A DNA stretch of 39,508 nt from a virus, in the IMG/VR virus record IMGVR_UViG_3300020205_000271, positions 1 to 39,508 of that record; one strand, 5' to 3'. Both the position numbers and the translations under genes were made by a program. Position 1 is the stretch's first letter. Each line of letters starts with the position of its first letter. Shown here piece after piece: positions 1,746 through 9,865 of the stretch. The notes beneath the pieces were generated by a model. It ran no database searches, was not told the origin of the DNA, and saw only the letters and a program-made list of their open reading frames with translations.

Positions 1746-1774
1746 TTGACACGCAGCTACCTATCCCCTAGAGT
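1746..1774 (+). promoter_or_regulatory. Rightward early promoter
   Basis: TTGACA (1746-1751) is a perfect -35, followed by a 17-bp spacer and TAGAGT (1769-1774) as -10 (4 of 6 consensus). The -35 sits inside the dyad GCGTGT (1733-1738)/ACACGC (1749-1754). Transcription would start near 1781 and enter the structured leader and the accessory operon from 2096. Confidence 0.6.
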
Positions 1775-2095: not shown

Positions 2096-2398
2096 ATGGG
2101 CTCAATTACCACCACGCCACACAAGCCTAGAGTGACCCGCGCATGGGCTCAGTCTAAGCATGGGGTGAGCGAGGTCACAATAACCAAACCTAATGGTGAG
2201 ACTTTCACAATTCCCGCCACGCCCGCCAAACCTCGCAAGCCACGCGCTCGCAAGGGTAAGCCACACAAACCACAAACCACACGCAAGCGCAAGCAAGCGC
2301 GTGCCGTTCGACCACAAGACCACAAGGCTATCGAGCTGCAAGAACGCATGGATAAACTCATGCGCGAAATGGGTTCGATACACTTAGACGACAATTAA
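2096..2398 (+). CDS. Small, very basic Lys/Arg/Pro-rich protein, first early gene
   Basis: This is a 100-residue protein of unknown family. The middle (about residues 42-80) is packed with Lys, Arg and Pro, resembling the tails of histone-like or nucleic-acid-binding proteins. The C-terminus (about 80-100) is an acidic amphipathic helix. Such a composition would suit DNA or RNA binding, but there is no recognisable fold. The ATG at 2096 follows GAAAGGTAAG about 8 nt upstream. It is the first gene after the early promoter and structured leader, the position where phages commonly place host-takeover proteins. The opposite-strand ORFs here are rejected because they lack ribosome sites and operon continuity. 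Confidence 0.75.
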   Translation: MGSITTTPHKPRVTRAWAQSKHGVSEVTITKPNGETFTIPATPAKPRKPRARKGKPHKPQTTRKRKQARAVRPQDHKAIELQERMDKLMREMGSIHLDDN

Positions 2399-2404
2399 GA
2401 CTTA

Positions 2405-2467
2405 GCCACGCCTAGCGATAGGCTACGAGGGTTCATGACCCAGCGTGGCACTCATGCAACCGCATGA
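2405..2467 (+). ncRNA. Compact three-way-junction RNA structure between early genes
   Basis: P1 is GCCAC (2405-2409)/GTGGC (2445-2449). P2 is GCCTA (2410-2414)/TAGGC (2419-2423) capped by a GCGA tetraloop of the GNRA class. P3 is GGGT (2429-2432)/ACCC (2438-2441). A separate 6-bp hairpin TCATGC (2452-2457)/GCATGA (2462-2467) follows, ending about 20 nt ahead of the next start codon. Almost the whole gap between the two genes is base-paired, suggesting an mRNA processing, stability or translational control element. Confidence 0.4.
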
Positions 2468-2489
2468 AATTGACTAGAGAGGATACGCC

Positions 2490-2630
2490 ATGCAACTATC
2501 CGCGAGTGACTTATTCGCGCTCATAATTGCTATCGGTTCGCTTAACACGATACTGATAATCGCGTTTCGTAGAGTCTATGTATTAGAACGCAGATTGCGT
2601 AGATACGAAGGCTACTATGAAGCACGATAA
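2490..2630 (+). CDS. Predicted 46-residue single-pass membrane protein
   Basis: The short protein has a hydrophobic segment at about residues 9-24 (FALIIAIGSL and following), then a strongly basic tail rich in Arg and Tyr (RRVYVLERRLRRYE). By the positive-inside rule the C-terminus should face the cytoplasm. The ATG at 2490 follows AGAGAGG at about 6 nt, the same ribosome-site type used by its neighbours. The next gene overlaps its 3' end by 14 nt, which supports real translation. The function is unknown. Confidence 0.6.
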   Translation: MQLSASDLFALIIAIGSLNTILIIAFRRVYVLERRLRRYEGYYEAR

Positions 2631-2742
2631 CAAACTCAATGCCACTATGCTATACGCCTTTCGCAAGGCTATGGTGAAGCCTAATGCTGATGAAGCCTTA
2701 GCGCACACAGTCCGAGAGATTATTGGTACTGATGTCCGATAA
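2617..2742 (+). CDS. Hypothetical 41-residue protein
   Basis: This small basic protein (begins MKHDNKLNAT) overlaps the genes on both sides: its start lies 14 nt inside the preceding gene and its end 11 nt past the next start. It is predicted mostly helical. No clear ribosome site is seen, so translation probably depends on coupling to the upstream gene. No family is recognised. Confidence 0.5.
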   Translation: MKHDNKLNATMLYAFRKAMVKPNADEALAHTVREIIGTDVR

Positions 2743-2923
2743 CCTACTATTAGACCTGACCCCTAGAGAGGTCGAGGTCATACGCATGGCACTACGCCAA
2801 GCACAAGACATTCACAAGCGCAACGACTTTAAGGTTCTAGTGATAGAGACCGAGGAGTTGCGTTCCAAGATTGCTAACGCTATTATAGATAGCCACACTA
2901 GCGGAAAGCCCGCTAGAGTATAG
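2732..2923 (+). CDS. Hypothetical 63-residue helical protein
   Basis: The product begins MSDNLLLDLTPREVEVIRMAL. The Leu-Thr-Pro-Arg-Glu start of a helix followed by a second amphipathic helix resembles small phage proteins of unknown role; there is no catalytic motif. The ATG at 2732 was chosen over an upstream in-frame TTG (2723) because ATG starts dominate this operon. It lies 14 nt ahead of the amidoligase gene and is likely co-transcribed with it. Confidence 0.65.
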   Translation: MSDNLLLDLTPREVEVIRMALRQAQDIHKRNDFKVLVIETEELRSKIANAIIDSHTSGKPARV

Positions 2924-2937
2924 AGATAGGTAAGCCT

Positions 2938-4251
2938 ATGTCTGATGAAGCTGCAATAAATTGTGCGTTCTGCTCAGGGATAATCTCTGATGTAGATGAC
3001 CAACGCACAATGCCTGACGGAGACATAGTGTGTGCAGATTGCACACTCTATTGCGAGTCATGCAACACTCTCATGCCTAATGATGATGCACTCACGAATG
3101 AGAATAGTATCTATTGCTCAGAGTGTGCCACTAATTGCGAGAATTGCCAAGATGTTACACACAGAGATGACCTACATAGTGTCGGTCGTGATGTATGGTG
3201 TAATTCATGCTATGAGAATAATACATTCTACTGCGAAGGTTGTAGCGAGTCCTATCCTGATTACTGGTCTAACTACTATGTAGAGGATAGTACTTACTGC
3301 GAGTCATGCTATGAGTCAGAATGTTACTACTGCGAGGACTGTGACGAGTACCGCATGAATGGTAACGAGTGCGAGTGTGACGGAATTGGTGGTAGAACAC
3401 GCCAGCCTTGCGGTTGTCGTGGCTTTATCCATAACTATTCATGCAAGCCTAACCTCACCTTTAAGGGTAACTCCAGCAAGGGTGTGTACATGGGCTTCGA
3501 GTTAGAGATGGAGATTAGAAGTGGTAGTGACGAGTTACAGGAAGCTGCAAGGTTTGCTTCTAATGCACTCGACCCTATCGCTATCCTTAAAACTGATGCT
3601 AGTATAGGTCGAGACGGATACTCAGGCTTCGAGTTAGTTACTCAACCACACTCTCATACAGAGTACAGAGATAACTCTAAGGTACTATGGGCTACCATAG
3701 ATAAACTGCGTACCGACCACTACGCTAGGTCATGGGATACCAACACTTGCGGGCTACACATTCATGTGAGTCGTGCAGGGTTTAATAGCGGGGCACACAC
3801 GCACCGCTTTATCGCTTTCATCTATCACAATAGTGAGATGATGATGAAGTTTGCGGGTCGTAAGACCGACTTCGCACGCTTTAATGATTGCTATAAGTTT
3901 GATGAGTATGACAAGCCAGTCATGTCCTTTAAGCACAAGACAGGAAATCCACAACGCAACTCTACGGAGAGATACTCCGCAGTCAATACACAGAACAGGG
4001 ATACGCTGGAGCTGCGCTTCTTTAGGGGTACTATGAACCCTAGCGGGGTGCTATCCGCGCTTGACCTAACACAAGCAATAGTCGAATACACGAGAGAGTT
4101 ACGCCTTGATGATGTTAAACTAGGCGCACTCACATGGGATTGGTTCGCTGATTATGTCAGAGATAACAATGGACTATACCCTGACCTATACTCACGCCTG
4201 CCTAAGATTGCAGGCACGAGTATTACCAACCGACAACTAATGGAAGCATAG
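2938..4251 (+). CDS. Predicted amidoligase with an N-terminal multi-zinc-finger region
   Basis: The 437-residue protein has two parts. Residues 9-162 hold about two dozen Cys, mostly as CxxC pairs (CAFC, CADC, CESC, CSEC, CENC, CNSC, CEGC), like tandem treble-clef or LIM-type zinc fingers. Residues 183-385 carry the signature of the Amidoligase_2 family, which has a glutamine-synthetase/glutamate-cysteine-ligase-like fold: GFELEME (186-192), FELVTQP (231-237), CGLHIHVS (271-278), RYSAVN (345-350) and LELRFFRGT (357-365). The Glu and His residues in these motifs are the expected metal and ATP ligands. The family is predicted to form amide or peptide bonds using ATP and is often found beside a glutamine amidotransferase, as here (next gene, 10 nt away). 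The substrate is unknown; cell-wall peptide or host protein are options. The ATG follows GAGATAGG. Confidence 0.85.
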   Translation: MSDEAAINCAFCSGIISDVDDQRTMPDGDIVCADCTLYCESCNTLMPNDDALTNENSIYCSECATNCENCQDVTHRDDLHSVGRDVWCNSCYENNTFYCEGCSESYPDYWSNYYVEDSTYCESCYESECYYCEDCDEYRMNGNECECDGIGGRTRQPCGCRGFIHNYSCKPNLTFKGNSSKGVYMGFELEMEIRSGSDELQEAARFASNALDPIAILKTDASIGRDGYSGFELVTQPHSHTEYRDNSKVLWATIDKLRTDHYARSWDTNTCGLHIHVSRAGFNSGAHTHRFIAFIYHNSEMMMKFAGRKTDFARFNDCYKFDEYDKPVMSFKHKTGNPQRNSTERYSAVNTQNRDTLELRFFRGTMNPSGVLSALDLTQAIVEYTRELRLDDVKLGALTWDWFADYVRDNNGLYPDLYSRLPKIAGTSITNRQLMEA

Positions 4252-4261
4252 AGAGGATACT

Positions 4262-5095
4262 ATGTGCATACTCGTAGTGTGTGAGCCTAACTCCACACCA
4301 AGTAAATCAGACTTGCACGCTGGTGCATGCGCTAACCCGCATGGCTTCGGCTTCGCAATACACGCTGGTGATAAGATTATCTCAGAACGCAGTATGTCTG
4401 CAAAGAAATCTATCAAGCGTTTCATGGAGCTGCGAGCGCAGTATCCTAACGGCTATGCCATGTGGCATGCACGATACGCCACACATGGTGTAAAGAACGA
4501 ACAGAATTGTCACCCATTCCAAGTCGGTGATGATGAAGGCACATACCTAGCACACAATGGTGTGTTAGATGTTGCTATCCCACACGGCGACCGCCGTTCA
4601 GACACACGAGTCTTTGCAGAGGACACGCTACCTAAACTAGGTGGTGTCAATGCACTAGATGACGATACTATTTGGCTCATGATTTCCAAGTGGGCTAGTG
4701 GTAGTAAGATTGCTATACTCACGACCAGTACCACCGCCAAGTATCCTATGTACTTAGTCAATGAGAACTTAGGTACATGGGATAACGAGGGTATCTGGTG
4801 GTCTAATCAGAGTCACAAGCGTACTACCTATACCAAGCCAGCAGTACTCACTACCTATAATGAGTACGACAGCGTGTCCAAATGGGCAGATGTTGCTGAA
4901 GTCTTAGATGACTCGCAGCTTGATGAATTATGTCCGTATTGCTTGGGAATTGTAGACCTCGATGATAATCCGTACTACTGCCCAACATGTACGCTATGCT
5001 TCGACTGCTCAGATGTAGTGCATAACTGTATGTGCTATACTCCAAGCACTAGCAAGTGGACAACTCGTAGAGATTACGACTTGTTCTCATACTAA
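4262..5095 (+). CDS. Class II glutamine amidotransferase with C-terminal zinc-finger tail
   Basis: This 277-residue Ntn-fold glutaminase should release ammonia from glutamine for the neighbouring amidoligase. Cys2 immediately follows the initiator Met (MCIL) and is the expected N-terminal nucleophile after Met removal. Other family motifs are WHARYATHG (68-76), HPF (84-86), LAHNG (96-100) and SDT (113-115). Residues 224-258 add CPYC, CPTC and further Cys and look like a zinc-binding tail, matching the Cys-rich head of the amidoligase, so the two may dock through zinc modules. The gene begins 10 nt after the amidoligase stop with AGAGAGG ahead of the ATG at 4262. No synthetase or acceptor domain is fused to it, so the amidoligase is the obvious partner. 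Confidence 0.88.
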   Translation: MCILVVCEPNSTPSKSDLHAGACANPHGFGFAIHAGDKIISERSMSAKKSIKRFMELRAQYPNGYAMWHARYATHGVKNEQNCHPFQVGDDEGTYLAHNGVLDVAIPHGDRRSDTRVFAEDTLPKLGGVNALDDDTIWLMISKWASGSKIAILTTSTTAKYPMYLVNENLGTWDNEGIWWSNQSHKRTTYTKPAVLTTYNEYDSVSKWADVAEVLDDSQLDELCPYCLGIVDLDDNPYYCPTCTLCFDCSDVVHNCMCYTPSTSKWTTRRDYDLFSY

Positions 5096-5098
5096 CAT

Positions 5099-5121
5099 TC
5101 TGTATGCAAAGTGTATACAGA
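5099..5121 (+). other. Stem-loop after the amidotransferase gene
   Basis: TCTGTAT (5099-5105) pairs with ATACAGA (5115-5121). It has no T-run behind it on the plus strand, so it is more likely an mRNA processing or stability element than a terminator. Confidence 0.3.
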
Positions 5122-5146
5122 GTAACACCAACACGAGAGGTAACAA

Positions 5147-5416
5147 ATGTCCACAACCACAAATCTCTTCAACTTAGTTGAGGAAATCCGTATCATCGCT
5201 GATGAACTAGAGGCTAACATTGAGTCCGCAGCTTCGTCAGACTTCGTACCTAAGGGTACTATCGTCAAGGCTAAGGAAGTGCAGAACCGCTTCAAGGCTA
5301 AGTCAATGTGGGTCTCACTAGGAGACGGCACATACAAGCACCTTACAGGCAAGAAAGGATTACTTGCTACAGACCACCGCCTAAGCGGTTATGTAGATGT
5401 AATCTTTCAACCCTAA
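5147..5416 (+). CDS. Hypothetical 89-residue protein
   Basis: Not recognised. The N-terminal third is an acidic amphipathic helix (residues 7-30, LFNLVEEIRIIADELEANIE). The remainder looks like a small beta-barrel (FVPKGTIVKAKEV, MWVSLGDGTYKHL, GYVDVIF), a shape often used for nucleic-acid or protein binding. AGAGG lies about 6 nt before the ATG at 5147. It belongs to the accessory operon downstream of the amidoligase pair. Confidence 0.75.
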   Translation: MSTTTNLFNLVEEIRIIADELEANIESAASSDFVPKGTIVKAKEVQNRFKAKSMWVSLGDGTYKHLTGKKGLLATDHRLSGYVDVIFQP

Positions 5417-5476
5417 CACCATGTCCTGAGCATGACTTGAAACTGCTCACCTTAAACTTAACAGAAAGGATAGTCA

Positions 5477-5641
5477 ATGAACATTGTATGGAAAGCAGAA
5501 CTATCTAGAGAGATGATGACTCATCTATCGCTTGAAAAGCAACAAGAACTTATGAGAAAATTAAGTGAGCAAGTAGACTTTATTGCTGCAGCTTATGAGG
5601 TAGGAAGGGAGTTCAAGCATGAGTTACGAACCACTACTTGA
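5477..5641 (+). CDS. Hypothetical 54-residue helical protein
   Basis: Begins MNIVWKAELSREMM and is predicted entirely alpha-helical, with mixed charge (LSLEKQQELMRKLSEQVDF), suggesting a coiled-coil or small adaptor protein. GAAAGGA precedes the ATG at 5477. The following gene starts 23 nt inside this one. Confidence 0.65.
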   Translation: MNIVWKAELSREMMTHLSLEKQQELMRKLSEQVDFIAAAYEVGREFKHELRTTT

Positions 5642-5753
5642 TGATGACATAGCACTAGGTAAAGATGAAGAGTGTGAAGATTGCGGTAACCTCATGAGTG
5701 AGGATACTTGCGGTGAACCTGATGTAATGTACGATGAAGCACTAGAGAGATAG
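5619..5753 (+). CDS. Acidic 44-residue Cys-containing protein
   Basis: Very acidic product (LLDDDIALGKDEECEDCG) with one CxxC pair and one further Cys, a partial zinc-ribbon pattern. Its ATG at 5619 lies inside the previous gene and follows GGAAGGGAG. It ends 8 nt before whiB. Function unknown. Confidence 0.6.
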   Translation: MSYEPLLDDDIALGKDEECEDCGNLMSEDTCGEPDVMYDEALER

Positions 5754-5761
5754 GAGATACA

Positions 5762-6091
5762 ATGCAAGGTCTATGCACAGGTCATGAGAACCCTGACCTA
5801 TGGTTTAGCGAGTCTATTGACAGCGATGGCGACAGTTCACATACTAATGAGAACAGCGCAGAGTACAAGCAACGCATCGCTAATGTAAAGACCGCGCTGG
5901 CTATCTGTAATGCATGCCCCGCTAAGGCTGAATGCTTTGACGAGGGTATGAAAAGAGAGAACTTAGATAATGGAATTTGGGGAGGCTCTCTACCAGGTGA
6001 GCGTATCGTACTTGCAGATGTTTCAATAACATGGAATAATCGCAGGTCTATGATTAACTTCGCACATAGAGTGAGGGCAACAACACAATGA
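5762..6091 (+). CDS. whiB: WhiB-family Fe-S transcription regulator
   Basis: The 109-residue protein has the four conserved Cys of the WhiB (Wbl) family at positions 5, 49, 52 and 58, the last three in C-x2-C-x5-C spacing (ICNACPAKAEC). The diagnostic turn GIWGG (71-75) is followed by GER (79-81). Wbl proteins carry a redox-sensitive 4Fe-4S cluster and many bind the principal sigma factor of RNA polymerase. They occur only in Actinobacteria and their phages, which identifies the host phylum. Phage copies such as mycobacteriophage TM4 WhiB can repress host whiB genes and alter septation. The gap from the first to the second Cys (43 residues) is wide. AGGAGATACA precedes the ATG at 5762, and the stop overlaps the next start as ATGA, implying coupling to the lysozyme-like gene. 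Confidence 0.92.
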   Translation: MQGLCTGHENPDLWFSESIDSDGDSSHTNENSAEYKQRIANVKTALAICNACPAKAECFDEGMKRENLDNGIWGGSLPGERIVLADVSITWNNRRSMINFAHRVRATTQ

Positions 6092-6480
6092 AATCACTAA
6101 CATTCTTACTGCTCGTAGTAGTAGCTCTGCTATTAACCGACAACTCAAAGACAGCCACGGACACAACAGACAAAGTCGTGCAAGTCCTTTGGAGTAAGGA
6201 ACATAGCAAGGCATACGCTAGAGATAAACTCAGCGAGTGGCAAGATGAACAATGGTCATGTCTCAACAGATTGTGGGGCAAGGAATCCGCATGGAATCCT
6301 GAAGCTTTTAATCCTATCCGTGTAATGGGGAAGCATGCGGGTGGGATTCCACAACTGTTGGGGCTTGACCCCGATACACCAGCACCACGACAAATAGAGC
6401 GTGGACTTGATTACATTTACTACAGATACGGCACACCATGCGATGCATGGTCTCATTGGAAAAGGAATGGTAACTACTAA
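6088..6480 (+). CDS. Secreted lysozyme-like (transglycosylase-type) protein in the early operon
   Basis: Residues 4-17 are a hydrophobic signal or membrane anchor (LTFLLLVVVALLLT). Residues 55-130 match the lysozyme-like domain common in actinobacterial secreted proteins: W-x-CL-x2-LW-x-KESAWN with Glu66 as the expected catalytic acid, GGIPQ (85-89), a GLDYIYYRYG segment (106-115) and C-x2-W-x-H near the end. Cys58 and Cys118 probably form a disulfide. It should cut or bind peptidoglycan glycan strands outside the membrane. It overlaps whiB by 4 nt (ATGA). Its early-operon position, far from the holin/endolysin cluster, suggests wall remodelling, superinfection exclusion or support of DNA entry rather than final lysis; that is inference. 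Confidence 0.82.
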   Translation: MKSLTFLLLVVVALLLTDNSKTATDTTDKVVQVLWSKEHSKAYARDKLSEWQDEQWSCLNRLWGKESAWNPEAFNPIRVMGKHAGGIPQLLGLDPDTPAPRQIERGLDYIYYRYGTPCDAWSHWKRNGNY

Positions 6481-6590
6481 TGGAGGAAGAAACAATCAAC
6501 TGTTCAAGGTGTGAAGCTCCGACACCCGAGAGTGAACTGTTAGAATTACTTTCATGGTGGGTATGTGCTATCTGTTATGACGATTTATAG
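6480..6590 (+). CDS. 36-residue zinc-ribbon miniprotein
   Basis: Two CxxC knuckles (CSRC at 8-11 and CAIC at 29-32) separated by an acidic helix form a complete four-Cys zinc site in a tiny protein. Its ATG overlaps the preceding stop by one base (TAATG), so it is translationally coupled to the lysozyme-like gene. Probable protein- or nucleic-acid-binding module; function unknown. Confidence 0.65.
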   Translation: MEEETINCSRCEAPTPESELLELLSWWVCAICYDDL

Positions 6591-6602
6591 AGAGGATAAA
6601 TT

Positions 6603-6827
6603 ATGAGTGAGCATGTAGATAATATTAGTCATGACTATTCAGAGTCAATGGACATTCGTGGTGAGCCAACCACGGTATGCCCATGTGGTTCACAGTTATG
6701 GCTAGTCAAGGTAATGTTCGATGAAGAGGGGGATATAGGTATGTGGTTTACAGAGACAATGGAATGTGTAGTGTGTGGCACCTTAGCCACAGCTCCACAC
6801 CCTAGTGATGAGGTAACAGATGGCTGA
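6603..6827 (+). CDS. 74-residue zinc-ribbon protein
   Basis: It carries CPCG (26-29) and CVVCG (55-59) as two zinc knuckles around a short beta hairpin (LWLVKVMFDEEGDIGMWF), the layout of a classic zinc ribbon. N- and C-terminal tails are acidic. AGAGAGGATAAATT precedes the ATG at 6603, and the next gene begins 8 nt before its stop. It may interact with RNA polymerase or a nucleic acid, but no family name is justified. Confidence 0.75.
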   Translation: MSEHVDNISHDYSESMDIRGEPTTVCPCGSQLWLVKVMFDEEGDIGMWFTETMECVVCGTLATAPHPSDEVTDG

Positions 6828-7260
6828 GTTCTTACACCAAGTAATAAAGAAGCGTGAACGAGAGATGGAAATGCGTGGGTTATTAGACTTTGACTCACAA
6901 ATATTTCAGCATGCACAACGAATCCAGCGTGGGTCGGCACTTGACGAGCAGATATTTCGCCCGCCGGCGTGGAGTATTCCGCCTGCAACTGACATAACAT
7001 ACAGGTTTAATTCTAACAATGGGGTTACGGAACACTCTGTAATCTTCCCTAATGTTGGTAGTTGGATTCAATCAGCAGTAATTATTATGACACCAGGGAG
7101 CGTGACCTTACGCTCACCTCAATTACTATCTATTATTGCATGGGATTTATTAGCAGGACACCCATGCAGACCTAACTATAGTTGGGATAACAATATATAT
7201 ACATGTAGAACCTGTAGCGGTACCTACACAACTGATGGAAGCGAGTGGCAACGTGGCTAG
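6820..7260 (+). CDS. Hypothetical 146-residue protein
   Basis: Not recognised. A basic helical N-terminus (residues 2-40, LHQVIKKREREMEMRGLL) is followed by a beta-rich middle (60-105) and a Cys cluster at the end (C116, then CRTC at 129-132), possibly a small zinc site. GAGG lies 7 nt ahead of the ATG at 6820. Its 3' end overlaps the FmdB-like gene. Confidence 0.65.
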   Translation: MAEFLHQVIKKREREMEMRGLLDFDSQIFQHAQRIQRGSALDEQIFRPPAWSIPPATDITYRFNSNNGVTEHSVIFPNVGSWIQSAVIIMTPGSVTLRSPQLLSIIAWDLLAGHPCRPNYSWDNNIYTCRTCSGTYTTDGSEWQRG

Positions 7261-7429
7261 TTATGAATACAAATGTGAGATTGACTCAAGCACTGTTACA
7301 ATCAGTCGGGGTATGACCGAAGAAGAAATCATACCTTATTGTGATAGTTGTAATGAGCCAATGGTAAGGGTGTACAGTGCACCACCTGTCAAGTTTAATG
7401 GCAGTGGATTCTATTCAACGGGAGGATAA
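7253..7429 (+). CDS. FmdB-like zinc-ribbon protein
   Basis: About 58 residues. From the GTG at 7253 the product begins M-ASYEYKCE and ends with VRVYSAPPVKFNGSGFYSTGG, matching the FmdB putative regulatory family in both end motifs (YEYKC at the start and GSGFYxTxx at the end). It keeps CDSC but the first knuckle has only one Cys, so zinc binding may be incomplete. The in-frame ATG at 7235 would add six residues. GTG is preferred because FmdB proteins begin two or three residues before YEY. It overlaps the end of the previous gene by 8 nt. Confidence 0.75.
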   Translation: MASYEYKCEIDSSTVTISRGMTEEEIIPYCDSCNEPMVRVYSAPPVKFNGSGFYSTGG

Positions 7430-7684
7430 ATGACAAAAGAATATATAACTAAGGCACACTATCCTGTGCCTATCTGTCCATGTGAAAGTGGTGGTTGCTC
7501 AGCATGTGAGCCTGTCAATGACGAGCTTCAGTTTGCTAGCATGAAAGAGATTGAAGAGTTCTACAATATAGATGGGGAAGCATTGCATGTTGACCCAGCA
7601 GAGATGGACTTAGAAGGTATGATACAAGACATGATTGATTCAGAGGTTAACTTCGACAAAGAGTTTGACCCTGATGCCAAGTAG
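7430..7684 (+). CDS. Acidic 84-residue hypothetical protein with Cys-rich N-terminus
   Basis: Residues 16-26 contain four Cys (CPCESGGCSAC), a compact metal-binding look. The rest is acidic helix (MKEIEEFYNIDGEAL, EMDLEGMIQDMIDS). GGGAGGATAA precedes the ATG at 7430, directly after the FmdB-like stop. Function unknown; the acidity could reflect DNA mimicry or protein binding. Confidence 0.7.
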   Translation: MTKEYITKAHYPVPICPCESGGCSACEPVNDELQFASMKEIEEFYNIDGEALHVDPAEMDLEGMIQDMIDSEVNFDKEFDPDAK

Positions 7685-8430: not shown

Positions 8431-8824
8431 CGCTAACCTTCTCGTTCTTAAACTTGCGGGTCATTGTAAGTAAATCTTCTACAGTAATCAGGTAACCTTT
8501 ACTCTTATTAGGTGGAATCTCGCAAGAGATTTCTCTTCCAAATTCTAATACACCCTTCTTTAAGATATGTGTTGGTATAATAAAGACGGCTTGCTCTAAT
8601 ACGAATGCCCAATGTGAAGCTTCAGTAACCATTAAGCCTGATGGCTCCCATGATTCAGACTTCTTGAACCAGCATTCAACTTCGATATAAAGATTGTTTG
8701 TAATCCACCACTTGCGGTCGCGCTTGACTTCTACTGTACGCCCACCAGTAAGCAACTCTTCTACTAACTGTTCACCCTTACGGCCGTACCCAAAGTCTAT
8801 ATCAAACGATGACTTGTTTGTCAT
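8411..8824 (-). CDS. Putative nuclease-like protein (PD-(D/E)XK-type pattern)
   Basis: The 137-residue protein begins with FDIDFGYGRKGEQLVEELL, followed by VEVK (31-34) and YIEVEC (46-51), then a SGLMVTEASHWAFVL segment. The order Glu18, Glu32-x-Lys34, Glu48 resembles the core of small PD-(D/E)XK nucleases of the resolvase/restriction type, but the canonical Asp is not clear. It overlaps the methyltransferase gene upstream by 23 nt and the sigma-like gene downstream by 20 nt. A nuclease that acts in recombination or alongside the methyltransferase is possible; catalytic activity is inference. Confidence 0.55.
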   Translation of the reverse strand: MTNKSSFDIDFGYGRKGEQLVEELLTGGRTVEVKRDRKWWITNNLYIEVECWFKKSESWEPSGLMVTEASHWAFVLEQAVFIIPTHILKKGVLEFGREISCEIPPNKSKGYLITVEDLLTMTRKFKNEKVSDELATN

Positions 8825-9485
8825 TAGTTAACTCCTTCATCAGTTGTCTTCCAATGTACTCTGTGTACGCTGGTGGTATTGCTTCGACCAGTTCTCCCCA
8901 AATCATCCAGTCAATTCCCATTGCATCTCGTGCTTCTTCAATAGTCTTAGCAGTCATACCACCATAGACATACTTGCCTGTTGCTTTGTCTAACCCCTGA
9001 GGGTTATCATTCATCGCACCATACACACCAACGGGCTTGCCTTGTTCTTTGTGCTTGCACTTCGTGCCTTCAAGTTTAATATTACTCTCAAACAATCTAT
9101 GCCTGCGTACCTTCAAGCCAAAGGCTGAACCACATATCTGAATTGGGTTGATAAGTGGTGCACCTTTGACGTTCTCAATTACATACGGCTTACCTGATTC
9201 AATCAGTAGTTGTCGTACTGGTTCAAGCAAGTCTAACTTAGATGTTGTCCCACCCTGCGCTTCACGCAGATGTTTGGTTATGCTATGAGTTTGGCAAGGA
9301 GGTGATGCATGGATTGCATCATAGTCCTGCAACTCAGCAAGTGTAACAGTATTGAAATCTCTGCGCAAGTAAGTGAATGGGTATCTCTTACCATGCTTGA
9401 CATCAAGTCCAGTTACCTCAAACCCTGCTAAGGCGTAGCCCTTAGAGGCTCCACCTGCACAGCAGAATAGGTCAAGTAGTTTCAT
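8802..9485 (-). CDS. DNA (cytosine-5) methyltransferase
   Basis: The 227-residue enzyme transfers a methyl group from S-adenosylmethionine to C5 of cytosine in DNA. Motif I is LDLFCCAGG (4-12), motif IV ASPPCQ (60-65) with catalytic Cys64, motif VI ENV (104-106), and motif VIII RRHRLF (127-132). The C-terminus (about 205-220) contains the motif X helix (PPAYTEYIGRQL). The protein is short for the family, with a small target-recognition region, as in many phage orphan methyltransferases. There is no clear cognate restriction enzyme, though the next gene could be a nuclease. Likely roles are protection against host restriction or marking phage DNA. It overlaps its upstream neighbour by 4 nt. 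Confidence 0.92.
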   Translation of the reverse strand: MKLLDLFCCAGGASKGYALAGFEVTGLDVKHGKRYPFTYLRRDFNTVTLAELQDYDAIHASPPCQTHSITKHLREAQGGTTSKLDLLEPVRQLLIESGKPYVIENVKGAPLINPIQICGSAFGLKVRRHRLFESNIKLEGTKCKHKEQGKPVGVYGAMNDNPQGLDKATGKYVYGGMTAKTIEEARDAMGIDWMIWGELVEAIPPAYTEYIGRQLMKELTNDKQVIV

Positions 9486-9865
9486 TTATCCCATTGTCCT
9501 CGTAGTATTAGCAATCCAATGATTGCATAGTTAGCCATATCTTTGAATGAATCTTCCAATGATTCATGCTGAGGGTCAGCACCACTATCGACTAGATTAC
9601 TGATGCGTGCCAATTTGTCATGCATCCGTACACGCAAGCCATTGATAGGCCCACCAGGGGCTTGCGAAATATTCTTAGGGCCATAGTCCCTATGCTTACT
9701 CAACAACAAGTCAGAGAGTTCATTGACTGTGTTGCTCAAGTGCACCTCTAGATGGACTTCGCGTGCAATAGAGGGATTGCTAAGGTTACTTTCAGCAGAG
9801 CGCCGTCCTTCAACACCAACTCTACTGGTAATCCTAACCCCGTTAGATACTGAATAATCTGCCAT
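9482..9865 (-). CDS. MazG-like / DUF1599-type (nucleotide-modification-associated) protein
   Basis: The 127-residue protein has a disordered first 40 residues and then an all-alpha core. The pattern LLLSKHRDYGPKNIS (53-67), RMHDKLARI (80-88) and ESLEDSFKDMANYAIIGL (101-118) matches the DUF1599 / Nmad1 family. That family resembles MazG-type nucleoside triphosphate pyrophosphohydrolases, whose Glu and Asp residues on the helices bind magnesium. It directly precedes the methyltransferase gene and overlaps it by 4 nt, fitting nucleotide-pool control or DNA modification. Substrate unknown. Confidence 0.75.
   Translation of the reverse strand: MADYSVSNGVRITSRVGVEGRRSAESNLSNPSIAREVHLEVHLSNTVNELSDLLLSKHRDYGPKNISQAPGGPINGLRVRMHDKLARISNLVDSGADPQHESLEDSFKDMANYAIIGLLILRGQWDK

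Follow-up and report, generated by a model that had tools for sequence, protein, structure and literature searches.

Amidoligase/Glutaminase Pairs in Phages

Iyer et al. (2009) predicted the pairing of an amidoligase (AL) with a class II glutamine amidotransferase (GAT), and this pairing has also been noted for phage Marvin (both as cited in PMC10580990). The pair was also reported for the Methylophilales phages MEP401/402 (PMC10580990). A cell wall role in superinfection exclusion has been proposed for the phiEco32 genes, a proposal resting on Iyer et al. (2009) (as cited in PMC10580990 and PMC11318856). The substrate of the pair is reported in no paper that we found in the open literature. 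In Marvin (cluster S), AL and GAT are the adjacent gp105 and gp106; since both are annotated as "glutamine amidotransferase domain protein," gp105 is misnamed, and its misannotation is repeated through the cluster S phages. In phiEco32 and LUZ24, an amidoligase likewise adjoins a class II GATase.

Here we describe an AL/GAT pair in a 39,508-base window (the whole stretch of DNA that was analyzed), which is a phage genome with a 99-base terminal repeat and, because of this repeat, very probably complete. AL (437 aa; positions 2938–4251, plus strand) consists of an N-terminal LIM-like zinc array and a glutamine synthetase (GS)-fold ligase, as recognized from its open reading frame, Pfam matching, conservation, and a structural model, and its stop codon is separated by 10 nt from the ATG of GAT (277 aa; 4262–5095, plus strand), which was recognized by Pfam matching, conservation, and fold and has Cys2 as the putative nucleophile. 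The coordinates, the 10-nt spacing, and the sequence motifs given for the pair in a first-pass annotation, made from the letters alone, all agree with the open reading frame list and the translations. A small protein is encoded on the plus strand immediately 5′ of AL (2723–2923) and an 89-aa protein immediately 3′ of GAT (5147–5416, plus strand); they are present in 67 and 77 of the 86 pair loci, respectively. All of these genes belong to a plus-strand cluster of small genes (2096–7684), and the rest of the genome, including the replication and virion genes, lies on the minus strand and faces the opposite way. The cluster has its own strand and its own promoter-like region (1675–1774), and calling it an "early operon" is plausible, though not proven. 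Neither a tRNA nor an Rfam family was found in the window.

The window proteins share 31% (AL) and 34% (GAT) identity with their Marvin counterparts, with the same gene order and a C-terminal Cys cluster in GAT, although the Marvin AL has a shorter Cys region, with four CxxC before the ligase domain, and the gene neighbors differ. AL and GAT are also adjacent in MEP401/402, but GAT there lacks the C-terminal Cys cluster, and in the longer AL the ligase domain is preceded by only two CxxC. The GAT of phiEco32 and LUZ24 resembles that of the window in having C-terminal CxxC pairs, whereas their AL lacks the Cys array, and their operon adds a COOH-NH2 ligase, a RimK-like ATP-grasp ligase, and a gamma-glutamyl cyclotransferase.

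Catalytic Domains of AL and GAT

The ligase domain of AL (residues 165–424; 3430–4209, plus strand) was identified by Pfam matching, conservation, an AF2 model, and Foldseek. AL matched the Pfam family Amidoligase_2 (PF12224) with E = 7.5e-7 and 29.7 bits (curated cut-off 22), as did all 77 AL relatives (E ≤ 0.05). It contains the motifs GFELEME (residues 186–192), CGLHIHVS (271–278), and LELRFFRGT (357–365). Residues E188, E190, D220, E232, H274, H276, R279, R345, N350, N353, E358, and R360 are invariant among 77 diverse sequences. In Foldseek searches, the AF2 model (mean pLDDT 86.8) matched YbdK, Dop, glutamine synthetase, PafA, plant glutamate-cysteine ligase, and gamma-glutamyl-methylamide synthetase. 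The invariant motifs lie on strands of the model at residues 185–193 (ExE), 272–278 (HxH), and 356–363 (ExR), which we take to be the strands that would carry the metal and ATP ligands in GS. AL therefore has both the GS-like fold and the ExE, HxH, and ExR catalytic motifs of Amidoligase_2, and the earlier proposal that its Glu and His motif residues belong to a ligase active site accords with the position of the Glu, His, and Arg motif residues on the core strands of the GS-fold model, as seen by AF2 and Foldseek. AL had no match at E ≤ 1 to the Pfam family of Pup ligase and Dop, and the likeness to these enzymes is one of fold only. Run against the sequences in the PDB, the AL profile retrieved C2H2-finger and LIM chains, matching the Cys array only and partly as an effect of Cys composition, and it retrieved no GS enzyme; for this reason, we relied on the fold search for AL.

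GAT matched the Pfam family GATase_6 (E = 1.2e-6, 29.0 bits, cut-off 27), and its Ntn glutaminase domain (residues 1–185; 4262–4816, plus strand) was recognized by invariant residues and matches to GlmS. Cys2 directly follows Met1, and no variation is seen at C2, R71, N99, G100, or D114 among 65 diverse sequences; these residues correspond to Cys1, Arg73, Asn98, Gly99, and Asp123 of GlmS. A profile search of PDB sequences (hmmsearch) found the GlmS glutaminase (1xff, E = 6.8e-6) as well as PurF, and the AF2 model of GAT (mean pLDDT 83.8) matched the fold of 1xff with E = 4.5e-8. The profile score above the cut-off, the Ntn fold, the N-terminal Cys, and the glutamine-binding residues are all those of a class II amidotransferase. 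GAT is not a full GlmS or PurF, as it scored 19–28 bits with the NCBIfam equivalog models vs. cut-offs of 350–418. Judged by invariant residues, Pfam matches, and fold, both active sites appear to be intact, which upholds the initial assignment of the two genes as an amidoligase and a class II glutaminase. NCBIfam and PADLOC searches yielded no useful name for the pair, and three AL/GAT pairs had no match at E ≤ 0.01 to the known defense systems in PADLOC.

Cysteine-Rich Regions

The Cys array of AL (residues 9–147; 2962–3378, plus strand) is a tandem N-terminal array of 16–20 Cys, with five units of the CxxC-x(n)-CxxC type and predicted zinc binding. The CxxC pairs are at residues 9/12, 32/35, 39/42, 60/63, 67/70, 88/91, 99/102, 121/124, and 132/135, and the array closes with a CxC (C145/C147). 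A spacing of CxxC-x17-18-CxxC recurs in the array, as in LIM domains, and Foldseek matched the array to LMO2 (2xjy, E = 8e-4, probability 0.99) and to the LIM domains of Isl1 and PINCH, in agreement with the two-zinc fold of LIM domains. One fold relative is already called "LIM domain containing protein" by automatic annotation. The Pfam LIM family (PF00412) is matched by 7 of 77 AL relatives (best E 6.6e-6); because the window protein itself has no such match at E ≤ 1, we term its array "LIM-like." The second Cys-rich region, in GAT (residues 224–258; 4931–5035, plus strand), is predicted to bind two zinc ions through C224, C227, C240, C243, C246, C249, C256, and C258.

All eight Cys of the GAT module are invariant in 65 sequences. 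In the AL array, C99, C102, C121, C124, and C132 are invariant in 77 sequences, and C9, C12, C60, C63, C67, C70, C88, C91, C135, and C145 are conserved in at least 90% of them. On this sequence comparison, the Cys of both regions are conserved and not an accident of composition. The first-pass annotation had described zinc-type Cys-rich regions at the N-terminus of AL and the C-terminus of GAT, and both were confirmed, with zinc binding being the likely role of their conserved Cys. Between close relatives, dN/dS is about 0.00–0.25 in the catalytic domains and about 0.09–0.42 in the zinc regions, in which the Cys are fixed. More rapid change of the surface around a constant set of Cys would fit a recognition surface whose target itself changes, and relaxed constraint would look alike. 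The LIM-like character of the array suggests protein binding.

It was also proposed initially that the two zinc regions might dock with each other. However, 57 of 66 GATs from bacterial loci, phiEco32, and LUZ24 have no CxxC beyond residue 190 despite a neighboring AL array, as is the case for most bacterial GATs, and phiEco32 and LUZ24 represent the reverse case. The zinc modules of AL and GAT are thus distributed independently and have therefore been gained and lost separately, which makes obligate mutual docking unlikely.

Pairing and Distribution

Scans of IMG/VR, together with named phages, yielded 96 distinct complete phage AL genes, and a GAT match accompanies 95 of them, the sole exception ending 67 nt before the end of its contig. 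The gap between the two genes in phages is mostly 8–15 nt. The order is swapped in one short contig resembling Marvin (L237), where GAT precedes AL and the two genes are still adjacent. Among named phages, the pair is found in Marvin and its cluster, Methylophilales MEP401/402, ctgrD200, and Acinetobacter phage 313.

Our scan of bacterial genomes found 80 AL genes, mostly in Clostridia and some in Coriobacteriia, with single loci in records titled Bacteroidetes, Phycisphaerales, Victivallis, Bdellovibrio, and others; these names are record titles, and many of the entries are MAGs, in which phage contigs may be present. A Cys array (at least four CxxC) is found in every bacterial AL. Where downstream DNA was available, a class II GATase was found nearby for 73 of 78 bacterial AL, nearly always as the next open reading frame. 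The AL of a Mycobacteroides plasmid also has a GAT alongside. The other five bacterial loci and one C. difficile plasmid have AL without a recognizable GAT, so AL may be able to work without it. Recurrent neighbors of the bacterial pairs are resolvase, DUF3846, DUF932, YqaJ, and DUF960, which suggest mobile elements. Overall, the adjacency of AL and GAT is far beyond chance. The first-pass annotation had suggested looking for conserved neighbors of the pair in other actinophages and had counted homologs that never co-occur as evidence against it; the two genes occur together nearly always, and not in actinophages alone, as non-actinophages, plasmids, and mobile-element loci of bacteria carry them too.

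A gene fusion was considered as proof of contact between the two proteins and rejected. AL and GAT form a single frame in an Atopobiaceae locus (L269), but they are two overlapping frames in a near-identical Collinsella locus (L252), and the single frame probably arose through a frameshift or an error in sequencing. Two AL genes in tandem ahead of one GATase were observed in three loci (L243, L244, and L249). In addition, one genome of Butyricicoccus pullicaecorum has six AL copies on different contigs (L248, L250, L258, L259, L266, and L284), which suggests that a single cell carries numerous related mobile elements.

Accessory Status and Neighboring Genes

Ten near-full-length relatives of the window phage, picked by capsid protein, were searched for AL and GAT. 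Both genes are present in eight and neither in two, and in no case is one present alone. One of the pair-less relatives has a 127-base terminal repeat and is, on that account, complete. Both of them keep the WhiB-like, the lysozyme-like, and other plus-strand genes, but lack the small proteins encoded on either side of AL/GAT in the window, and the place of the pair is taken by other small genes. The AL/GAT pair is accessory and moves as a unit.

The presence of a lysozyme-like gene in the same cluster had led to the suggestion that the pair might modify peptidoglycan peptides or a host protein. This gene stays when the pair is absent, was not found beside the pair in Marvin or in two other divergent phages (L041 and L203), and is not among the recurrent neighbors of the bacterial pairs. 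Because it is kept in the pair-less relatives, a peptidoglycan link by neighborhood fails, and the lysozyme-like gene was rejected as a functional partner. The 89-aa protein 3′ of GAT was likewise rejected as a constant third component, with no homolog beside the pair in divergent phages, and it is a possible third component within this lineage only. Its likeness to a model of RNA polymerase subunit G is weak (E = 0.011, below the cut-off). Elsewhere in the window, a DUF1599 "nucleotide modification associated" protein (9482–9865) stands beside a short C5-methylase-like protein of 227 aa (8802–9485); these two genes hint that the phage modifies nucleotides or DNA in a way unrelated to the pair.

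Upstream Sites and Promoter

Two perfect palindromes of the sequence TGTGANNTANNTCACA, the consensus described in Corynebacterium for the cAMP-dependent regulator GlxR (PMC4254451), are found on the plus strand at 1675–1690 and 1698–1713. They precede a predicted sigma70-like promoter (TTGACA-17-TAGAGT, 1746–1774, plus strand), recognized by its consensus match, that reads into the operon. Among 69 distinct relatives with enough upstream DNA, which are not independent of one another, 29 have a perfect site 1.0–1.7 kb upstream of AL; the other 40 have no perfect site, and only perfect sites were scored. No perfect site was found elsewhere in about 604 kb of the relatives' DNA, and none was found in either pair-less relative. 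A promoter-like TTGACN-16/18-TANNNT sequence follows within 100 nt of the site in 23 of the 29, vs. 28 of 580 random stretches. By sequence, these would be sites for a CRP/GlxR-type regulator, which may influence the expression of the operon. It is possible that phage genes that include the AL/GAT pair are wired to the cAMP signaling of the host.

Proposed Function and Alternatives

Alongside the computed folds, catalytic residues, pairing, accessory status, and independent zinc modules, we favor, as probable though by no means certain, the reading of AL and GAT as a two-subunit glutamine-dependent amidoligase whose LIM-like array selects the target. GAT, with its Cys2 and Ntn fold, would split glutamine and free ammonia; AL, with its GS fold, would spend ATP on converting a carboxylate to the activated acyl phosphate and, presumably in a complex with GAT, join it to the ammonia delivered by the latter, giving a carboxamide product. 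On a broader reading, a different amine could be attached to the target in place of this ammonia. The LIM-like array on AL would pick the target, for which a host protein or peptide is the most probable candidate, and the C-terminal zinc module of GAT would be a separate accessory device. As accessory cargo of phages, plasmids, and integrated elements, the pair would probably aid host take-over or competition among elements. The best fit may be a cytoplasmic target, most likely a protein, that phages have in common with non-lytic elements.

The chemistry could also run differently. In a ligase/hydrolase pair like EgtA/EgtC or PuuA/PuuD, AL would mask an amine with a gamma-glutamyl or comparable group, which GAT, acting as a gamma-glutamyl amidase of the Ntn type, would later take off to unmask the amine, with no carboxamide made. 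EgtC, which removes a gamma-glutamyl group, has structures among the fold matches of GAT, and on this ground the alternative is retained; glutamate-cysteine ligase and gamma-glutamyl-methylamide synthetase among the AL matches, as well as the cyclotransferase and RimK-like ligase in the phiEco32 and LUZ24 operon, point the same way. However, the GlmS and PurF glutaminases outscore EgtC as matches to GAT, and no cyclotransferase gene was seen adjoining the pair in this lineage, and we regard this pathway as rather unlikely. A different substrate is envisaged in the wall role proposed for the phiEco32 genes, as presented in the two papers cited above: wall-peptide carboxyls would be amidated so as to keep competing phages from adsorbing or later endolysins from cutting. 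In favor of this role, wall peptides are amidated through such chemistry by MurT/GatD and AsnB-type enzymes. Against it, the pair is not accompanied by any wall gene, as shown above for the lysozyme-like gene; the LIM-like array suggests protein binding, and neither AL nor GAT has an obvious signal or membrane segment by eye. This makes superinfection exclusion through the wall improbable in our judgment.

The DUF1599 and C5-methylase-like genes in the same phage might instead suggest that the pair modifies DNA bases or a nucleotide, shielding the element from restriction. A methylase-like gene is near the pair in just 5 of 86 loci, DUF1599 is kept in the two pair-less relatives, and neither is among the recurrent neighbors of the bacterial pairs, all of which leaves such a role very improbable indeed. 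Returning to the two-subunit amidoligase, its most specific form would be a protein modification system of mobile elements across many phyla, in which the LIM-like array steers the ligase to a host (perhaps defense) protein, a carboxylate of that protein is amidated, and the system is switched on through cAMP/CRP (GlxR-type) control; we put this forward as speculative, with a small but real chance of being correct in full.

Comparison With Known Systems

The open literature that we searched contained no paper on the LIM-like array of AL, the spread of the pair through mobile elements, the independence of its zinc modules, or its CRP/GlxR-type control. The LIM-bearing, mobile-element-wide form of the already predicted pairing thus appears, from sequence, to be new; it is a compact two-gene accessory unit of phages, plasmids, and integrated elements in several phyla.

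Functionally, the pair resembles MurT/GatD and AsnB-type enzymes, in which a carboxylate is amidated by a ligase supplied by a glutaminase. The pair is not a MurT/GatD peptidoglycan amidase, which consists of a Mur ligase (MurT) and a class I GATase (GatD), as AL has a GS fold and GAT is of class II; AsnB, unlike the pair, is a single chain with another synthetase fold. Dop and PafA of the Pup pathway in actinobacteria share the GS fold with AL, match it in fold, and act on a protein carboxylate or carboxamide, but they have no GATase partner and no LIM array. LMO2, Isl1, and PINCH share with the AL array the zinc-module fold and the CxxC-x17-CxxC spacing. These proteins are eukaryotic, whereas the AL array is fused to an enzyme, is all-Cys, and has other linker lengths. 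The LIM fold is best known from eukaryotic protein–protein interaction, and here it is found, in LIM-like form, on a ligase of bacterial mobile elements; if the proposed reading is true, it would provide a rare bacterial example of substrate recognition by a LIM-like module.
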